A stretch of DNA of 64,000 nt from positions 2,852,001-2,916,000 of the forward strand of contig NZ_CP117522.1 in the NCBI RefSeq assembly GCF_031679605.1, in the 5' to 3' direction. Below are positions 5,006 through 53,294 of the stretch, one piece after another. Numbering within the stretch: position 1 is the stretch's first letter; the number at the start of each line of letters is the position of its first letter. The notes beneath the pieces are model-generated. The model had not been told where the DNA came from and did no database searches. It saw nothing but the letters and a program-made list of their open reading frames with translations. The stretch is from Streptomyces luomodiensis. GTDB lineage: Bacteria > Actinomycetota > Actinomycetes > Streptomycetales > Streptomycetaceae. Position numbers and translations under genes: made by a program.

Positions 5006-5019
5006 GGCGGGACGAAGCA

Positions 5020-5113
5020 CTCGCGGGAGCCCGGACGCACCGGGCTGAGAGGGAGGCTGACACGGCCTCCGACCGTACGAACCTGATCCGGGTCATGCCG
5101 GCGAAGGGAGGGG
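5020..5113 (+). promoter_or_regulatory. TPP (THI-box) riboswitch
   Basis: Hallmarks of the thiamin-pyrophosphate aptamer are present in order: the GGGAGCCCGG arm, CGGGCTGAGAGGG with the invariant CTGAGA at 5045-5050, ACCTGATCCGGGTCATGCCGG at 5081-5100, and the closing GCGAAGGGAGG at 5101-5111. The closing strand contains the Shine-Dalgarno sequence (AAGGGAGGGG, 5104-5113) and the GTG start of thiO follows at 5118. Binding of TPP would therefore hide the ribosome-binding site directly. No separate terminator hairpin is seen, so control is probably at translation initiation. Confidence 0.95.
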
Positions 5114-5117
5114 CGGC

Positions 5118-6457
5118 GTGTCCACGCACGCACCAGGTCACGACGGACCACACGCACCAGGTCACGACAACGACGGACCGCACACAACCGGCCACGACAA
5201 CGACGGACCGCGCACGCCAGGTCACGTGGACGACGGACCGCATACACCGCGACCCGGCGGCGGACCGCCCGGCGGGGCCTATGACGCCCTCGTCATCGGG
5301 GGCGGCATCATCGGCCTGGTCACGGCCTGGCGAGCGGCCCAGCGGGGCCTGCGCACCGCCCTCGCCGACCCGGCGCCCGGCGGCGGAGCCGCCCGTGTCG
5401 CGGCCGGGATGCTGGCGGCCGTCACCGAGCTCCACTACGGCGAGCAGACCCTGCTCGGCCTCAACTTGGCCTCCGCACGCCTCTATCCGGACTTCGTGGC
5501 CGAGCTGGAGGAGGCCGGCGGCCAGGACGTCGGCCACCGGGCGTGCGGCACGCTCGCCGTCGCGTTCGACTCCGACGACCGCGCCCATCTGCGTGAACTC
5601 CACACGTTCCAGCAGGGGCTCGGGCTGGACTCCCAGTGGCTGACGGGGCGGGAATGCCGCCGTCTGGAACCGATGCTCGCGCCGGGCGTACGCGGCGGGC
5701 TGCGCGTCGACGGCGACCACCAGGTGGACCCGCGGCGGCTGGCGACGGCGCTGCTCATCGCGTGCGAGCGGGCCGGGGTGGTCCTCCACCGCGCCCGTGC
5801 GGAGCGGCTGCTGCTGGACGGCGACCGCGCCACCGGGGTCGAGCTGACCGGGGGCACCCGGCTGGCCGCCGAGCACACCGTGCTCGCCGCCGGCAGCCTC
5901 AGCGGACGGCTCGCGGGCGTCCCCGACGACGTCCTGCCACCCGTCCGCCCGGTCAAGGGACAGGTGCTGCGGCTGTCGGTGCCCGAACGCTACGCGCCGT
6001 TCCTCTCCCGGACGGTACGGGCCGTGGTGCGCGGCGGACCGGTCTACCTCGTGCCGCGCGAGAACGGCGAGCTGGTCGTCGGCGCGACCACCGAGGAACT
6101 GGGCTGGGACACCACGGTCACCGCGGGCGGCGTGTACGAACTGCTGCGCGACGCCCATGAGCTGGTGCCCGGCATCACCGAACTCCCGCTGGTGGAGACG
6201 TGCGCCGGGCTGCGCCCCGGCTCCCCCGACAACGCCCCGATGCTCGGCCCGACCGCGCTGCCGGGGCTGCTGCTGGCCACCGGCCACTACCGCAACGGCG
6301 TCCTGCTCACCCCGATCACCGGCGATGTCATGGCCGAGGCGCTGACGAGCGGAGAACTCCCGCCCGAGGCCCGGCCGTTCACCCCGCGGCGCTTCGCGGC
6401 CCCGGCCGTCCCCGACGCGTCCGCCGCCGCGCCCTCCCCCGTACAGGAGCAGCACAC

Positions 6458-6461
<4 letters not shown>
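5118..6461 (+). CDS. thiO: Glycine oxidase ThiO (thiamin thiazole synthesis)
   Basis: 447 residues. An FAD-dependent oxidase of the DAO family; it converts glycine to the imine used by ThiG for the thiazole ring. FAD-binding motif YDALVIGGGIIG at residues 55-66, RVAAGMLAAVTE near residue 90, the substrate-domain motif GCLRVDGDHQVDP-like GGLRVDGDHQVDPRRL, and a C-terminal GLRPGSPDNAPMLG with GHYRNGVLLTP. The first about 53 residues are an extra low-complexity leader made of four PGHDNDGPHT-type decapeptides, absent from standard ThiO. The GTG at 5118 is fixed by the ribosome-binding site in the riboswitch. Its stop overlaps thiS by four bases (ATGA). Confidence 0.94.
5133..5246 (+). repeat. 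30-bp tandem repeat coding the ThiO N-terminal decapeptides
   Basis: Four imperfect copies (one of 24 bp and three of 30 bp) encode PGHDGPHA, PGHDNDGPHT, TGHDNDGPRT and PGHVDDGPHT. The copies start 15 bases after the thiO start codon. The reading frame is kept because the full unit is 30 bp. His/Asp-rich repeats could bind metal, but there is no direct evidence. Confidence 0.85.
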
Positions 6462-38312: not shown

Positions 38313-39710
38313 TCAGCCGCGGTCCGGGACGCAGCGGCCGTCCTCGGTGCGGTAGCTCCACCGGGCACCGTCGCGTACGAGCTCGGCCACGGCGCGGACG
38401 AACCGCTCCACATGTTCGTCCGGGGTGCCCGCCCCGAAGCTGACCCGGATCGCGTTCAGCGCACGCTCCCCCGGCGCGGCCTCGGGCGCACCGCATTCCC
38501 CCGGCTCGTCGGGCTCGCTGTCCAACAGGGTGCGGACCAGCGGATGCGCGCAGAAGAGCCCGTCGCGCACGCCGATGCCGTACTCCGCGGAGAGCGCCGC
38601 CGCGAAGTGGGAGCTGTTCCAGCCCTCCACCACGAACGAGAGCACACCGACCCGGGGGGCGTCGTCGCCGAACAGCGACAGCACCCGCACCTCGGGCACC
38701 TCGGCCAGCCCCGCCCGCACCGTGGCGATCAGCTGCCGCTCACGGGCCACCAGGCCCTCGAAACCGGCCTCGGTCAGCGCCTTGCACGCGGAGGCGATCG
38801 CGTAGACGCCGATGACGTTCGGCGAGCCCGCCTCGTGCCGGGCGGCCGTGGTGTGCCACTCGACGTCGATCCCGCCGTCGTCCCGGCGCGCCACCTTACG
38901 GCTGGCGCCACCGCCCGCCAGATACGGCTGGGCCTCCCGCAGCCAGTCGGCCCGCCCGGCCAGCACACCGGCCCCGAAGGGCGCGTACAGCTTGTGCCCG
39001 GAGAAGGCCACCCAGTCCACGTCCGCCGCCGCGATGTCCACCGGGTGGTGCGGGGCCAGCTGCGCGGCGTCCAGCACGATACGGGCGCCGTGGGCGTGCG
39101 CCGCGGCGGCCAGCTCCCGTACCGGCCACAGCTCACCGGTCACATTGGACGCGCCGGTCACGCAGACCAGCGCCGGGCCCTCGGCCCGCCCCGCGAGCGC
39201 CGTCTCCAGCGTCTCCACCGCCTGCCGCGGGGAGCGCGGGGCGCTGAGGTAGTGGACGGCGATGTCCGCCCGCTGCCGCCAGGGCAGCAGCGAGGCGTGG
39301 TGTTCGGTCTCGAAGACGAAGACCTGGGTGCCGCGCGGCGCCACGGCGGCCAGGAGGTTGAGCGAATCGGTGGTGGAGCGGGTGAAGACGACCTGGTCGT
39401 CCGCGCGGCAGCCGAGGAAGGCGGCGACGTCCTTACGGCTGTTCTCGAAGAGGTCGGTGGACAGCTGCGAGAGGTAGCCCGCCCCGCGGTGCACGCTGCC
39501 GTAGTAGGGCGCGTAGGCGGCGATGTCGTCCCAGACCCGCCGCAGGGCGGGCGCGCTGGCGGCGTAGTCGAGCGCCGCGTAGGTCACCTCGCCGCCGGTG
39601 ACCAGGGGCACCAGGACATCGCTGCCGAGCACGGGCAGCGGCTCACAGGCGGCGGAGGAGGAAGTGGCGGAGGAGTCGGCGGAGGCGAGGGCAGAAGGGC
39701 GCACGGACAT
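38313..39710 (-). CDS. Class V aminotransferase (cysteine-desulfurase-like) under SAM-IV control
   Basis: 465 residues. PLP fold type I, class V: VVFTRSTTDSLNLL, ETEHHASLLPW, LVCVTGASNVTGELWP, IVLDAAQLAPHHPVD (Asp) and the Schiff-base Lys240 in VAFSGHKLYAPFGAGVL. The HYLSAP and GSPNVIGVYAIA regions match the NifS/SufS/isopenicillin-epimerase branch; a Cys in DGLFCAHPLV occupies the region of the desulfurase Cys but in a different loop context, so true desulfurase activity is unsure. A SAM-IV riboswitch and terminator precede it, so it is probably an S-amino-acid enzyme. ATG at 39710 with GGGAGA upstream. The first about 30 residues are a Ser/Ala-rich variable leader. Confidence 0.88.
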   Translation of the reverse strand: MSVRPSALASADSSATSSSAACEPLPVLGSDVLVPLVTGGEVTYAALDYAASAPALRRVWDDIAAYAPYYGSVHRGAGYLSQLSTDLFENSRKDVAAFLGCRADDQVVFTRSTTDSLNLLAAVAPRGTQVFVFETEHHASLLPWRQRADIAVHYLSAPRSPRQAVETLETALAGRAEGPALVCVTGASNVTGELWPVRELAAAAHAHGARIVLDAAQLAPHHPVDIAAADVDWVAFSGHKLYAPFGAGVLAGRADWLREAQPYLAGGGASRKVARRDDGGIDVEWHTTAARHEAGSPNVIGVYAIASACKALTEAGFEGLVARERQLIATVRAGLAEVPEVRVLSLFGDDAPRVGVLSFVVEGWNSSHFAAALSAEYGIGVRDGLFCAHPLVRTLLDSEPDEPGECGAPEAAPGERALNAIRVSFGAGTPDEHVERFVRAVAELVRDGARWSYRTEDGRCVPDRG

Positions 39711-39831
39711 GACGAGGTCTCCCGGAAGGGTCGAAGGCGTGCCGCGCCACGGGAGCGGCGGCGGTGAACCTGCCGTCGGGGCGCGGAAAGGTCGCTCGAC
39801 GCACGGCACCACCGCGCGGAGCGGACAATAG

Positions 39832-39851
39832 AAAAACGGGCCGCTCGGCCC
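39832..39851 (-). terminator. Intrinsic terminator of the SAM-IV expression platform
   Basis: On the minus strand GGGCCG-AG-CGGCCC is followed at once by UUUUU (39836-39832), a rare full U-run for this genome. It lies 60 bases after the aptamer and 122 bases before the aminotransferase start codon. Confidence 0.9.
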
Positions 39852-39893
39852 TAGCGCATTCGCTGCATCACGGAAGAGCTCCCTCGACCACCA

Positions 39894-40029
39894 GGACCCC
39901 TAGTGTGAGGGGTCCGCGCTTGCCACCGGCCTTGTTGCCAGGCGGCCTGGTCATCACCCGGGGCACCCCGCCACGGACGGAGGGTTGCCGGACAGCGGGC
40001 CGGGGCCGTAGTCGCTGTCGCTCGTGACC
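39894..40029 (-). promoter_or_regulatory. SAM-IV riboswitch
   Basis: The minus strand from 40029 to 39911 matches the SAM-IV class almost word for word in its conserved parts: GGTCACGAG at the 5' end, a GACAGCG/CGCTGTC stem, CCGGCAACCCTCC, GGCGGGGTGCCCCGGG, TGATGACCAGG closing P1, and GGCAAGCGCGGACC at the 3' end (pseudoknot). Directly after it GGACCCC-N8-GGGGTCC (39915-39894) forms a hairpin whose first strand overlaps the aptamer 3' end, a likely switching element before the terminator. SAM binding should stop transcription of the aminotransferase gene. Confidence 0.94.
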
Positions 40030-40056
40030 TGGGCAGGAGTATGCCATGCCGAACGC

Positions 40057-40101
40057 CGACGCCCATGTTCTGTCCGCATCCCGGACAGAACATGGGCGTC
40101 G
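40057..40101. promoter_or_regulatory. 20-bp perfect inverted repeat between trpD and the SAM-IV leader
   Basis: Arms 40057-40076 and 40082-40101 are perfectly complementary with a CATCC loop; the inner part is TTCTGTCCG-N5-CGGACAGAA (40068-40090). A third partial copy (ACAGAACACGGGCG) follows at 40104-40119. The repeat can end trpD transcription 43 bases past its stop, and it also covers the -35 region expected for the riboswitch transcript, whose -10 could be CATACT at 40043-40038. Confidence 0.8.
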
Positions 40102-40143
40102 TCAACAGAACACGGGCGGCGTAAGGGGGCCGCCGGGGTCCGC

Positions 40144-41217
40144 TCAGGCGTTGGTGGCCCGCACCCACCGCTCCAGGGCGTCGCGCGCCGCCCCCGAGTC
40201 GATCGACTCGGCGGCTTGCTCGACCCCCGCCGCGATCCGCTCCGTCAGGGGCTTGTCCCCCGGCTCCGGTTCGAGCGCCACGAGCGCCGCCGCCGAGTTC
40301 AGCAGCACCGCGTCCCGGACCGGGCCCCGCTCGCCCGCCAGCAGCCGGCGGGCCACATCCGCGTTGTACGAGGCGTCGGCACCGCGCAGGGCCTCCACGG
40401 GAGCCAGCCCGATGCCCACGTGCCGGGGGTCGAAGGTCTCCTGGCGCACGGCGCCGTTCCGGACCTCCCACACCTGGGAGGTCGAGGTCACGGTCAGCTC
40501 GTCCAGTCCGTCGTCGCCCCGGACGACCAGCGCGGAGGAGCCGCGCTCGGCCAGCACCCCGGCCATGATGGGCGCCATCCGGGCATCGGCCACCCCGGTC
40601 GCCTGGGATGTGACCCGTGCCGGGTTGGTCAGCGGGCCGAGGAAGTTGAACGGGGTGGCGACGCCGAGCTCGCGGCGGGCCGCCGCGACATGCCGCAGCG
40701 ACGGGTGGAACTTCACCGCGAAGCAGAAGGTGATGCCCGCCTCCTCCGCGATCTCGACCACCCGCTCCGGGCTGATGTCCAGATTGACGCCGAGCTTCTC
40801 CAGGACGTCGGAGGCACCGCTGGCGGAGGACGCGGCGCGGTTGCCGTGCTTGACCACCCGTGCGCCGGTGCCGGCCACGACCAGCGCGGACATGGTCGAG
40901 ATATTGACGGTCTTGGCGCGGTCGCCACCGGTGCCGACGATGTCCACGGTCGCCCCGGGCACCTCGATCACCTTGGCGTGCTCGTACATGGCCCGCACCA
41001 GACCGGTCATCTCGGAGACCGTCTCGCCCTTCGCCCGCAGCGCGACCGCGAAACCGGCGATCTGGACGTCGGTCGCCTCGCCCCGCATGATCTGGTCCAT
41101 GGCCCAGGCGGTGTCGTCCGCGCCGAGGTCCTGGCCGGCCAGCAGCGAACTCAGTACGTCCGGCCAGGTGCGGGCCGTCGCGGTGCTGTCGCCTCCGGCG
41201 GGGGTCACAACGTCCAT
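40144..41217 (-). CDS. trpD: Anthranilate phosphoribosyltransferase
   Basis: 357 residues. Motifs: [24 protein letters not shown] (PRPP site), [24 protein letters not shown] (anthranilate/PRPP), and [11 protein letters not shown]. It transfers anthranilate to PRPP, step two of tryptophan synthesis. It stands alone next to the bc complex genes, apart from the other trp genes, as in mycobacteria (Rv2192c). The first about 15 residues are extra. The ATG at 41217 has GGAG at a usable distance. No trp leader is visible here. Confidence 0.96.
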
Positions 41218-50939: not shown

Positions 50940-51850
50940 GCACCTGACACGACCCCGCCCCCGGCCCCGGCACACCCCGCTTCGGGACCCTGGCACGGCC
51001 CGGCTCGGGGTCCTGGCACGGCTCGGCTCGGAGCCTTGCGCGCCCCGGCTTGGGGTCCTGGCACGGCTCGGCTTGGGGCCCTGCGCGCCCCGGTTCGGGC
51101 TCCTGGCGCGGCTCGGCTGGGGGCCCTGCGCGCCCCGCCCCCCCGAGTCGGCCACGGCCCAGCCTCGGCGCCGATGCGACCCAGCTGCGAGGCCAGTGCG
51201 GCCCGGCACGGCGCGGTCGCGGCCCCGCACCCGCGCGACCCCGGCCACCGGCCCGGCGTGACCTCGGCTCCGCGGTCGGTGCGGTCCCGGTACGGACCCG
51301 GCCCGCCCTCGCCCCCGGAGCCGGTGCCGTCTCCGTCCCGGACCTGGCGCGGCCCGGCCTCGGGCTGACGCGGCCCCGACCCGGGGCCAGGTGCGGCACG
51401 GCCCGGTCTCGGCGCCGATGCGACCCAGCTGCGAGGCCAGTGCGGTCCGGCACGGCACGGCACGGCACGGTCGCGGCCTCGGCCCCGCACCCGCGCGACC
51501 CCGGCCACCGGCCCGGCGTGACCTCGGCTCCGCGGTCGGTGCGGCCCCGGTACGGACCCGGCCCGCCCTCGCCCCCGGAGCCGGTGCCGTCTCCGTCCCG
51601 GACCTGGCGCGGCCCGGCCTCGGGCTGACGCGGCCCCGACCCGGGGCCAGGTGCGGCACGGCCCGGTCTCGGGGTCGGTGGGACTCGGCTGCGAGGCCAG
51701 TGCGGTCCGGCACGGCACGGTCGCGGCCCCGGCCCCCGGAGCCCGGCGGGGTCTCGGCTCGGCGGTCGGTGCGGCCCCGGTACGGACCCGGCGCGGCTCG
51801 GCCTCGCGCCCGGCACGGCTCGGCCCCGGCCGCCGGGCTCGGACGGGGGC
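50940..51850. repeat. GC-rich tandem-repeat tract between ctaC and the cysteine desulfurase gene
   Basis: The 1156-base gap (50738-51893) holds no credible gene. From about 50980 to 51140 it is made of about 60-base units (GGTCCTGGCACGGCTCGG, TTGCGCGCCCCGG). From about 51164 onwards longer units repeat: the segment starting CGATGCGACCCAGCTGCGAGG recurs with offsets of 244 and 260 bases (landmark GCGAGGCCAG at 51187, 51431, 51691), with over 180 bases nearly identical between the first two copies and a shorter third copy. The length difference is a CACGG expansion. Long open frames on both strands in this tract are by-products of the base composition. Confidence 0.88.
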
Positions 51851-51893
51851 CGCGCGCGCCCGGTTGTCGGTGGTGGCGACTAGCGTTTCGTAT

Positions 51894-53294
51894 GTGCCCT
51901 ACTTCGACGCGGCCTCGTCCGCTCCGCTGCACCCCGTCGCCCGGCAGGCGCTCCTGGCCGCCCTCGACGAGGGGTGGGCCGACCCCGCCCGGCTCTACCG
52001 GGAGGGGCGCCGCGCCCGGCTGTTGCTGGACGCCGCGCGGGAGGCGGCGGCCGAGGCCGTGGGCTGCCGCCCGGACGAGCTGGTCTTCACTCCTTCGGGG
52101 ACGCGCGCGGTGCACGAGGGCATCGCGGGGGCGCTCGCGGGCCGTCGGCGCGCCGGCCGTCATCTGGTCGTCTCCGCCGTGGAGCACTCCTCGGTGCTGC
52201 ACGCGGCGGCCGCGCACGAGGCGGACGGCGGCACGGTCACCGAGGTGCCGGTGGACCGTATGGGGCGGGTCGCGCCGGGCGCGTACGCGGCGGCCCTGCG
52301 GGAGGCCCCGGACGGGGTGGCGCTGGCCTGTCTGCAGTCCGCCAACCACGAGGTGGGCACCCTCCAGCCAGTGGCCGAGGCGGCCGAGGAGTGTGCGGCG
52401 GCGGGCGTACCGCTGCTGGTGGACGCGGCGCAGTCGCTCGGCTGGGGTCCCGCGGCGGGCAAGTGGTCGCTCCTGACGGCAAGTGCCCATAAGTGGGGTG
52501 GCCCTGCGGGGGTGGGGCTGCTCGTGGTGCGCAAGGGGGTGCGCTTCCGTACGGCCTCGCCCGCCGACGAGCGGGAGTCGGGCCGCTCCCCCGGTTTCGA
52601 GAACCTCCCCGCGATCGTCGCCGCGGCCGCCTCGCTGCGGGCCGTCCGGGCGGAGGCCACCGCCGAGGCGGAACGGCTGCGGGGGCTGGTGGACCGCATC
52701 CGGGCGCGGGTGCCGGCGCTGGTGCCGGAGGTCGAGGTGGTCGGCGATCCTCAGCGGCGGCTGCCGCATCTGGTGACCTTCTCCTGTCTCTATGTCGACG
52801 GAGAGGCGCTGCTCCACGAGCTGGACCGCGCGGAGTTCTCGGTCTCGTCCGGCTCCTCGTGCACCTCGTCCACGCTGACCCCGAGCCATGTGCTGCGCGC
52901 GATGGGGGTGCTGTCCGAGGGCAATGTCCGGGTCTCGCTGCCGCGCGGTACGGCCGAGGCGGAGGTGGACCGGTTCCTGGAGGTGCTGCCGGGGGTGGTG
53001 GCCGAGGTGCGCGAGCGCCTGGGCGCGCCACGGCCGGCCGGAGCCGAAGCCTCCGCCCCGGCTCCCGAGCCCGAGCTGGTGGTCGATTCGCTCGGCAAGC
53101 GGTGCCCGATCCCGGTGATCGAGCTGGCCAAGGTGATCGGCGACGTGCCGGTGGGCGGCGTGGTGACGGTGCTGTCCGACGACGAGGCGGCCCGGCTGGA
53201 CATCCCGGCGTGGTGCGAGATGCGGGGCCAGACCTACGAGGGCGAGCGCCCGGCCGAACGGGGCGTGGCCTACCGGGTCCGCCGCCGCGACTGA
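51894..53294 (+). CDS. Cysteine desulfurase fused to a TusA-type sulfurtransferase domain
   Basis: 466 residues. Residues 1-375 are a NifS/IscS-type desulfurase: VFTPSGTRAVHEGI, SAVEHSSVLHAA, SANHEVGTLQP, LLVDAAQSLGW, PLP Lys200 in ASAHKWGGPAG, and the catalytic loop SVSSGSSCTSS with Cys323. A Pro/Ala linker follows, then residues 395-466 are a TusA/SirA domain with the active motif LGKRCPIPVIELAKVI (Cys404). The donor and first acceptor of persulfide sulfur are thus in one chain. GTG at 51894 starts the homologous part; no Shine-Dalgarno site is seen, and TAGCGT 8 bases upstream hints at a leaderless message. Likely sulfur sinks are thiamin, Mo-cofactor or tRNA thiolation (inference). Confidence 0.92.
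   Translation: MPYFDAASSAPLHPVARQALLAALDEGWADPARLYREGRRARLLLDAAREAAAEAVGCRPDELVFTPSGTRAVHEGIAGALAGRRRAGRHLVVSAVEHSSVLHAAAAHEADGGTVTEVPVDRMGRVAPGAYAAALREAPDGVALACLQSANHEVGTLQPVAEAAEECAAAGVPLLVDAAQSLGWGPAAGKWSLLTASAHKWGGPAGVGLLVVRKGVRFRTASPADERESGRSPGFENLPAIVAAAASLRAVRAEATAEAERLRGLVDRIRARVPALVPEVEVVGDPQRRLPHLVTFSCLYVDGEALLHELDRAEFSVSSGSSCTSSTLTPSHVLRAMGVLSEGNVRVSLPRGTAEAEVDRFLEVLPGVVAEVRERLGAPRPAGAEASAPAPEPELVVDSLGKRCPIPVIELAKVIGDVPVGGVVTVLSDDEAARLDIPAWCEMRGQTYEGERPAERGVAYRVRRRD

Follow-up and report, generated by a model that had tools for sequence, protein, structure and literature searches.

A SAM-IV riboswitch and a conserved short leader frame ahead of a desulfurase-like gene in Streptomyces

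In Streptomyces luomodiensis, an RNA of a SAM-sensing class precedes a gene for a cysteine desulfurase-like enzyme, and this raises the question of how the signal would reach the gene and which metabolic step it would serve. The DNA analyzed here, hereafter the window, is a stretch of 64,000 nucleotides (assembly GCF_031679605.1, contig NZ_CP117522.1, positions 2,852,001 to 2,916,000). On its minus strand, the region of interest extends from a trpD-like gene, which ends at 40144 and in the domain scan presented two glycosyl-transferase family domains, to a gene of the class V aminotransferase fold at 38313-39710.

The SAM-IV aptamer and its place in Streptomyces

The original prediction placed on the minus strand an aptamer of the known class SAM-IV and proposed a search against the corresponding Rfam model. 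The cmscan search of the window confirmed it: the model RF00634 was matched over its full length (1-116) at 39911..40029 (-), with 99.1 bits against a gathering score of 38 and an E-value of 6e-17. By model score the element is a SAM-IV aptamer, for which the binding of SAM is predicted. The strands of both pseudoknots, as they appear in the consulted part of the cryo-EM paper (PMC6890682), could be located by eye in the window; for PK-2, formed by the P3 region and the 3' end, the alignment read by eye gives CCGUG/CGCGG, with five possible pairs, one of them G-U. The genome carries two SAM-IV elements, and the one in the window is the better-scoring of the two. Between trpD and the riboswitch there is also an inverted repeat whose 20-bp arms match perfectly and are separated by 5 bases (40057-40101), and a further repeat arm lies at 40105-40121 (88% match over 17 nt).

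Aptamers of this class ahead of this kind of gene have been reported before. In S. lividans TK24, a SAM-IV with RNA-seq support precedes SLIV_26975, a "cysteine desulfurase" (PMC8079986, in part). In S. clavuligerus, a premature transcript predicted as SAM-IV was assigned to the class V PLP gene CRV15_21540, for which the drop from premature to coding RNA was among the most extreme (PMC8269248, in part). Both share with the window the aptamer class and the kind of target and, since these pairs are in print, the combination of aptamer and target is not new. The original prediction had considered the target the interesting part of the locus; it was right about the target, but the pair was already published and SAM-IV is present in 147 of 150 Streptomyces genomes (of the three in which it was not detected, two are 78% and 82% complete). 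The locus in the window is probably the same as in those two species. A TPP riboswitch is situated about 35 kb from the SAM-IV of the window, and in S. lividans the TPP element of the thi operon is about 44 kb away, according to the part of the source consulted. The TPP riboswitch of the window (5013-5127 (+), 60.8 bits) lies ahead of an ORF, 5118-6461, that by eye was named a ThiO-like oxidase.

A short leader frame directly behind the aptamer

Behind the aptamer, the original prediction had proposed a "full switching platform". The two hairpins that it named are present, but the description was incomplete, because the conserved site beside the aptamer reads as the ribosome-binding site of a short ORF which it had not mentioned. 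This putative leader ORF, GTG-ATG-CAG-CGA-ATG-CGC-TAG (M-M-Q-R-M-R-stop; 39851..39871 (-)), has seven codons including the stop, that is, six sense codons, and lies between the two hairpins; its Shine-Dalgarno sequence, GAGGGAG, is at 39879..39885 (-). The consulted parts of the S. lividans and S. clavuligerus reports (PMC8079986, PMC8269248) describe no leader ORF at this locus, and the S. lividans table of eight leader peptides, as consulted (PMC8079986), does not list it. In the portions of the open-licence literature on SAM-IV, upstream ORFs and leader peptides that were consulted, no description of a SAM-IV-linked mini-ORF was found.

The conservation of the frame was followed from the target gene and from the aptamer. 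The best 80 of 570 confirmed relatives of the target gene were fetched from named genomes by protein similarity alone; together with the window, all 81 carry the aptamer upstream of the gene, and in 76 of the 81 leaders the aptamer is followed by the frame RTG-N6-CGN-ATG-NNN-TAG, while one further leader ends in TAA. These 81 leaders were pooled with those of 21 genomes that have SAM-IV and lack the exact pattern, giving a set of 102 in which at least two records are present in both sources. The form M-x-x-R-M-x-stop is found in 95 of the 102, and 94 of these 95 ORF segments are distinct from each other. Thus, in most of the Streptomyces leaders read, the start site beside the aptamer opens a leader ORF and not the regulated gene, which is a difference from the description of the class; in the remaining seven, the main gene itself starts at that Shine-Dalgarno sequence. 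The start codons of the 95 ORFs are GTG (91), ATG (3) and TTG (1), and the core of the Shine-Dalgarno sequence stands 6-9 nt ahead of the start in every one of them. The most frequent peptides are MSKRMR (50), MMQRMR (12) and MNQRMR (6), and 27 leaders encode 18 other forms. Codons 4 and 5 are CGA and ATG in 95/95, and the stop is TAG in 94 and TAA in one; it should be noted that CGAATG was demanded by the search pattern for the ORF, yet the seven leaders outside the pattern contain no such ORF at all. Among the 21 genomes without the exact pattern, 18 presented a variant frame and three presented none. The variant frames keep CGA-ATG and the TAG stop and differ in codon 6 (CGG, TGC, TGT, TCC, CTC, CTT, CCG or TCG) or in codons 2 and 3; one begins with TTG. 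In one of these variants (L219) the contig ends ahead of any gene.

A genome-wide search with the tight pattern RTGNNNMAGCGAATGCGHTAG found exactly one match in each of 126 of the 150 Streptomyces genomes, and its reversed form gave no match in the same 150. Of the 126 matches, 124 have, among the SAM-IV matches listed, one ahead of them on their own strand at a distance of 12-63 nt (median 42), and inspection of the sequence revealed an aptamer in front of the other two as well. In a class-wide sample of 296 genomes, 28 of them from Streptomyces, the pattern occurred in 23, all of Streptomyces. The candidate leader ORF with its Shine-Dalgarno sequence is, at the level of sequence, conserved in Streptomyces and found only directly behind SAM-IV. 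The leaders are related by descent, so that the counts are not independent, and the pattern, like the cysteine rule and the pairing measure used below, was set after examples had been seen.

A protein tree of 87 tips, including four leaders without the mini-ORF, led us to reject the idea that the ORF is a late insertion in a few species: the leaders lacking it nest in two places inside ORF-bearing clades, and therefore the absence reads as loss. Supports of 0.976 and 0.942 were obtained for the clades uniting them with a neighbour that has the ORF, under a weakly supported backbone (0.6-0.8).

Hairpins, pairing and the possible role of the ribosome

The hairpin GGACCCC-N8-GGGGTCC, which the original prediction had drawn over the end of the aptamer, is present at 39894..39915 (-) (arms 39915-39909 and 39900-39894), and its first bases, GG, are shared with the PK-2 strand. 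Its pattern was matched in 86 of the 95 leaders, and the arms covary: with the 5' arm written GG[AG][CT]CC and the 3' arm GG[GA]TCC, the combinations are AC/G in 48, AT/A in 16, AT/G in 4 and GC/G in 18. For the second hairpin, the original prediction of GGGCCG-AG-CGGCCC followed by five U holds as regards the terminator and its five T; the loop of two bases does not, since the terminator scan gives a loop GAGC, with the hairpin GGGCC-GAGC-GGCCC at 39838..39851 (-) and, after one G, the five-U tract at 39832..39836 (-). The first base of this hairpin is the G of the TAG stop of the leader ORF. Within 551 bases two terminator-like sites were found, against a mean of 0.2 in shuffled sequences, the other one lying behind trpD at 40134-40115.

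The relation between the stop codon and the hairpin is widespread. A hairpin GGGC-N3..12-GCCC that starts on the G of the stop codon occurs in 78 of the 95 leaders, and 17 lack this anchored form. Complementarity extends to the next pair inward in 54 of the 78 (permuted mean 37.0, maximum 49) and, when only distinct loops are counted, in 33 of 46 (permuted mean 22.7; one in 5000 permutations was as good). Furthermore, the 26-nt segments beginning at the G of the stop codon have a mean folding energy of -8.56 kcal/mol, compared with -4.39 kcal/mol in mononucleotide shuffles.

We propose that the SAM-IV riboswitch acts on the desulfurase-like gene through the leader peptide, a reading to which we give an even chance. 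At low SAM, the sequence following the aptamer would form the GGACCCC/GGGGUCC hairpin, leaving the Shine-Dalgarno sequence GAGGGAG free, and a ribosome would translate the six-codon ORF M-x-x-R-M-x. Since the terminator hairpin has its base at the stop codon of the ORF, this hairpin would be kept from acting by a ribosome occupying the last codons, which, where the U-tract is poor, might perhaps also block a C-rich Rho site, so that RNA polymerase would continue into the gene. With SAM bound, PK-2 would hold the GG of GGACCCC, CCCUC would pair with GAGGG of the Shine-Dalgarno sequence, the mini-ORF would be silent and transcription would end ahead of the gene. The translation of the ORF, the switch in pairing and the relay by the ribosome are what we infer here from sequence and folding; with them, an otherwise ordinary riboswitch annotation would become a two-step regulator open to testing.

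The first step of this proposal was evaluated by folding. The anti-Shine-Dalgarno strand that we propose is CCCCTC (39907..39912 (-)). In the window, occupation of the PK-2 strand brings the predicted pairing of the Shine-Dalgarno sequence with its 5' segment up from 0.04 to 0.66; over 88 leaders the mean change is +0.184, in comparison with -0.013 when the middle is shuffled, and the pairing increases by more than 0.1 in 44 of the 88 and decreases by as much in nine. Plain accessibility of the Shine-Dalgarno sequence was discarded as a sign of switching, as its unpaired probability is nearly equal with the PK-2 strand free or occupied (0.281 and 0.262, 95 leaders). The pairing-partner measure was chosen after that result and is the sole one that gave a signal. 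Taken together, the folding moderately supports an OFF switch acting at the start of the mini-ORF.

The nearest precedent is, according to the part of the report consulted (PMC11260477), the B12 riboswitch of ppe2 in Mycobacterium tuberculosis with its relay ORF, uPPE2, where the riboswitch controls whether an upstream ORF is translated and the gene depends on that ORF. In the window and in the Streptomyces leaders, the start region of the upstream ORF likewise lies beside the aptamer. However, ppe2 is described there as relying mainly on termination-reinitiation at an AUGA overlap (PMC11260477), whereas in the window the gene starts 140 nt past the stop of the ORF (39851 to 39710), stop and start do not overlap, and the stop abuts a hairpin; ligand, gene and peptide are also different.

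A conventional transcriptional switch, in which SAM decides termination directly by RNA pairing and the short frame is untranslated or irrelevant, seems unlikely to us. It would agree with the good intrinsic terminator of the window, with its five U, and with the strong premature transcript published for such a leader in S. clavuligerus (PMC8269248, in part), which we also count in favour of the leader-peptide reading. In addition, a possible further strand, CCGC[GA]C, is complementary to the PK-2 strand and is present in the window, behind 39851 on the minus strand, and in other leaders; it stands 12-80 nt behind the mini-ORF stop in 57 of 94 leaders, where mononucleotide shuffles give an expectation of 16.9. 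In 48 of the free folds, the PK-2 strand finds its partner in bases beyond the hairpin. The leader-peptide model assigns no role to CCGC[GA]C. Nevertheless, when 94 leaders were folded in both states of the PK-2 strand, free and occupied, 81 were predicted to keep the stop-anchored hairpin throughout, one to gain it on occupation, four to lose it and eight to have it in neither, and therefore RNA pairing alone seems not to switch it. Such a switch also leaves unexplained why a start codon, the Shine-Dalgarno spacing and a stop are kept in 95 of 102 leaders, and why in the other seven the gene itself begins at that same Shine-Dalgarno sequence.

It is quite improbable, in our opinion, that CGAAUGNNNUAG owes its conservation to a role other than coding, either as a pause site or as an element acting as RNA or bound by a protein. 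What speaks for this is that CGA is invariant and TAG varies only once, although CGA makes up just 28 of the 2282 Arg codons of 78 downstream genes. This rarity makes the fixation of CGA at codon 4 striking and suggests either that decoding is meant to be slow here or that the RNA itself is constrained; fixed CGA and TAG imply that the nucleotides are constrained as well, beyond the peptide alone. Under translation, a rare and slowly read codon could account for CGA. On the other hand, codon 6 varies mostly among Arg codons (CGA 40, CGC 23, CGT 18, CGG 4, ten not Arg), GTG, ATG and TTG interchange at the start, and the spacing to the Shine-Dalgarno sequence is kept. Furthermore, no RNA partner for the invariant AGCGAATGCG core was consistent across the 95 leaders, each of four 6-mers having a complement in 5 to 19 of them. 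An apparent avoidance of CGG at codon 6 was dismissed, as the pattern had excluded that codon; it occurs in 4 of the 95, less often than expected from the downstream genes, where it accounts for 887 of 2282 Arg codons.

As regards the way in which transcription would end, in TnaC regulation Rho loads when no ribosome is paused at the stop codon of the leader ORF. A similar arrangement, with Rho loading on the C-rich stretch in the absence of a paused ribosome and the hairpin being secondary, appears improbable as the main mechanism. In its favour, 78 of the 95 leaders have no run of four T; a 50-nt stretch that begins 15 nt past the stop has an average composition of 45% C, 22% G, 25% T and 9% A (94 leaders, composition taken alone); and Actinobacteria rank low in predicted intrinsic terminators (PMC2965389, in part). 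Against it, the window and 16 other leaders do have runs of four or five T and the hairpin covaries. With a run of at least four T in only 17 of 95 leaders, the good intrinsic terminator of the window is not typical, and the C-rich stretch suggests that Rho may share in termination within the leader-peptide model.

SAM-IV leaders and sulphur metabolism in other Actinobacteria

Outside this set, 105 further SAM-IV leaders were selected among the matches listed, 95 from other actinobacterial genomes and 10 from secondary Streptomyces sites. By similarity, the gene behind the aptamer is metY in 44, the enzyme studied here in 39, metZ in 6, metX in 3 and a GST-like gene, as in L002, in 2, and 11 were unassigned; at the level of sequence, aptamer and target thus recur together across Actinobacteria. 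In the 39 leaders of this enzyme, the first frame behind the aptamer is gene-sized in 34, a 13-codon ORF in one, and in four no start was found by the rule; CGAATG occurs in two of the 39, and in the sequence read neither copy is followed by the stop of the mini-ORF. Like the seven Streptomyces leaders whose main gene begins at the Shine-Dalgarno sequence, the gene-sized frames of these other families support this site as a place where translation starts in relatives.

At metY, 28 of the 44 leaders open a mini-ORF with at least two Cys codons or, in 5 of the 28, with the peptide MSRCR (L235, L242, L246-L252, L254, L256, L260, L264, L265, L267, L269-L271, L274, L286, L287, L305, L309, L311, L319, L322, L325 and L332); among the peptides are MCCCRR, MCSCHE and MCRDC. 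The same rule applied 200, 300 and 400 nt behind the aptamer was satisfied in 1/104, 1/103 and 0/103 leaders. Behind the second SAM-IV of the genome there is an open frame ending in LTRRLHIDLLRICSASSPAG, with a weak match to NF042934 (19.7 bits, cut-off 27). The metY frames and this one indicate that the combination of aptamer and short ORF recurs with different peptides. Actinobacterial Cys leader peptides (NF042934, NF042936; leaders of cys operons, PMC1262725, in part) are likewise short ORFs before sulphur genes, and Cys codons are also found in ORFs behind SAM-IV, both at metY and in part of the secondary Streptomyces sites; the ORF of the window differs from them in that it has no cysteine codon or codon run and carries R-M instead. 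The codon run of a classical amino-acid attenuator is absent from the 95 Streptomyces ORFs, which have one invariant Met codon and one invariant Arg codon. A metY leader of another actinobacterial family (L243) carries, 35 nt downstream of the aptamer, MNHHRMRR-stop, which shares the CGAATGCG core. A motif like R-R/L-H-I/V-D-L is seen in ORFs that come after the second SAM-IV of the genome and after some of the secondary sites in Streptomyces (L002:1501-1827, L281-L284); the gene of L002 (1984-2829) is GST-like by eye, with weak family matches only, and has relatives at L283 and L284.

As a tentative generalization, which we hold with less confidence than the proposal for this locus, SAM-IV in Actinobacteria may often license a tiny sensor peptide and form a gate with two inputs: the RNA would report on SAM, and the ribosome on how much of an aminoacyl-tRNA is available. 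The mini-ORFs would be recoded, gained or lost by handing the same Shine-Dalgarno sequence between gene and peptide, and the residue sensed might be cysteine at metY and, at the desulfurase of Streptomyces, either methionine or rare-codon arginine. Should both cases work in the same way, an RNA that senses a ligand and a peptide that senses an amino acid have been brought together in a single leader on repeated occasions.

The target itself (465 aa, 38313..39710 (-)) was correctly recognized by the original prediction as a class V aminotransferase fold, cysteine desulfurase-like PLP protein: it has the PLP lysine, K240, and a SufS-type cysteine, C387, both present in 52 of 55 aligned rows, the other three (L087, L303, L320) being wrong-frame ORFs of 14.7-19.9% identity. 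Fold family, lysine and catalytic-type cysteine are shared with SufS; however, the enzyme reached 256.3 bits with the model TIGR01979, below the cut-off of 475.1, and is separate from the SufS of its own genome (617.3 bits, 28.8% identity). The role in methionine or cysteine metabolism that had been predicted gains support from other Actinobacteria, since there SAM-IV precedes metX, metY, rhodanese-metZ and orthologues of this enzyme. This places an orphan desulfurase-like enzyme beside SAM-controlled homocysteine genes.

The enzyme would supply cysteine-derived sulphur to methionine synthesis, and it likely moves it, as persulfide or sulfide, towards homocysteine. The genome has its own cystathionine gamma-synthase (676.7 bits, cut-off 513) and gamma-lyase (541.2, cut-off 440); no sulfhydrylase exceeded its cut-off, and a third strong member of the family passes no cut-off shown. 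The presence of the synthase without such a sulfhydrylase argues against a simple supply of sulfide for sulfhydrylases. Replacement of a missing MetC was rejected as the task of the enzyme in view of the PatB-like proteins of the genome (best 317.3 bits, cut-off 340). No co-transcribed partner was seen in the window: a 210-aa ORF overlapping the end of the target gene had no family match, and, among the ORFs scanned, the next one in which a known domain was recognized is a rhomboid gene of the opposite strand. In seven wider loci of other families, a rhodanese gene lies close behind in L086, 59 nt after the gene of this enzyme, and a methyltransferase gene in L083. Besides, SAM-IV is found ahead of a rhodanese-like gene overlapping metZ in L234, L237, L297, L301 and L331, with the Rhodanese domain confirmed by test in L237, an overlap for which a persulfide route to homocysteine is possible. 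A second domain of the class V aminotransferase fold occurs in the window at 51900-52976 (+), with 134.8 bits, in the ORF 51651-53294, whose C-terminus by eye looks like a TusA-type sulphur carrier.
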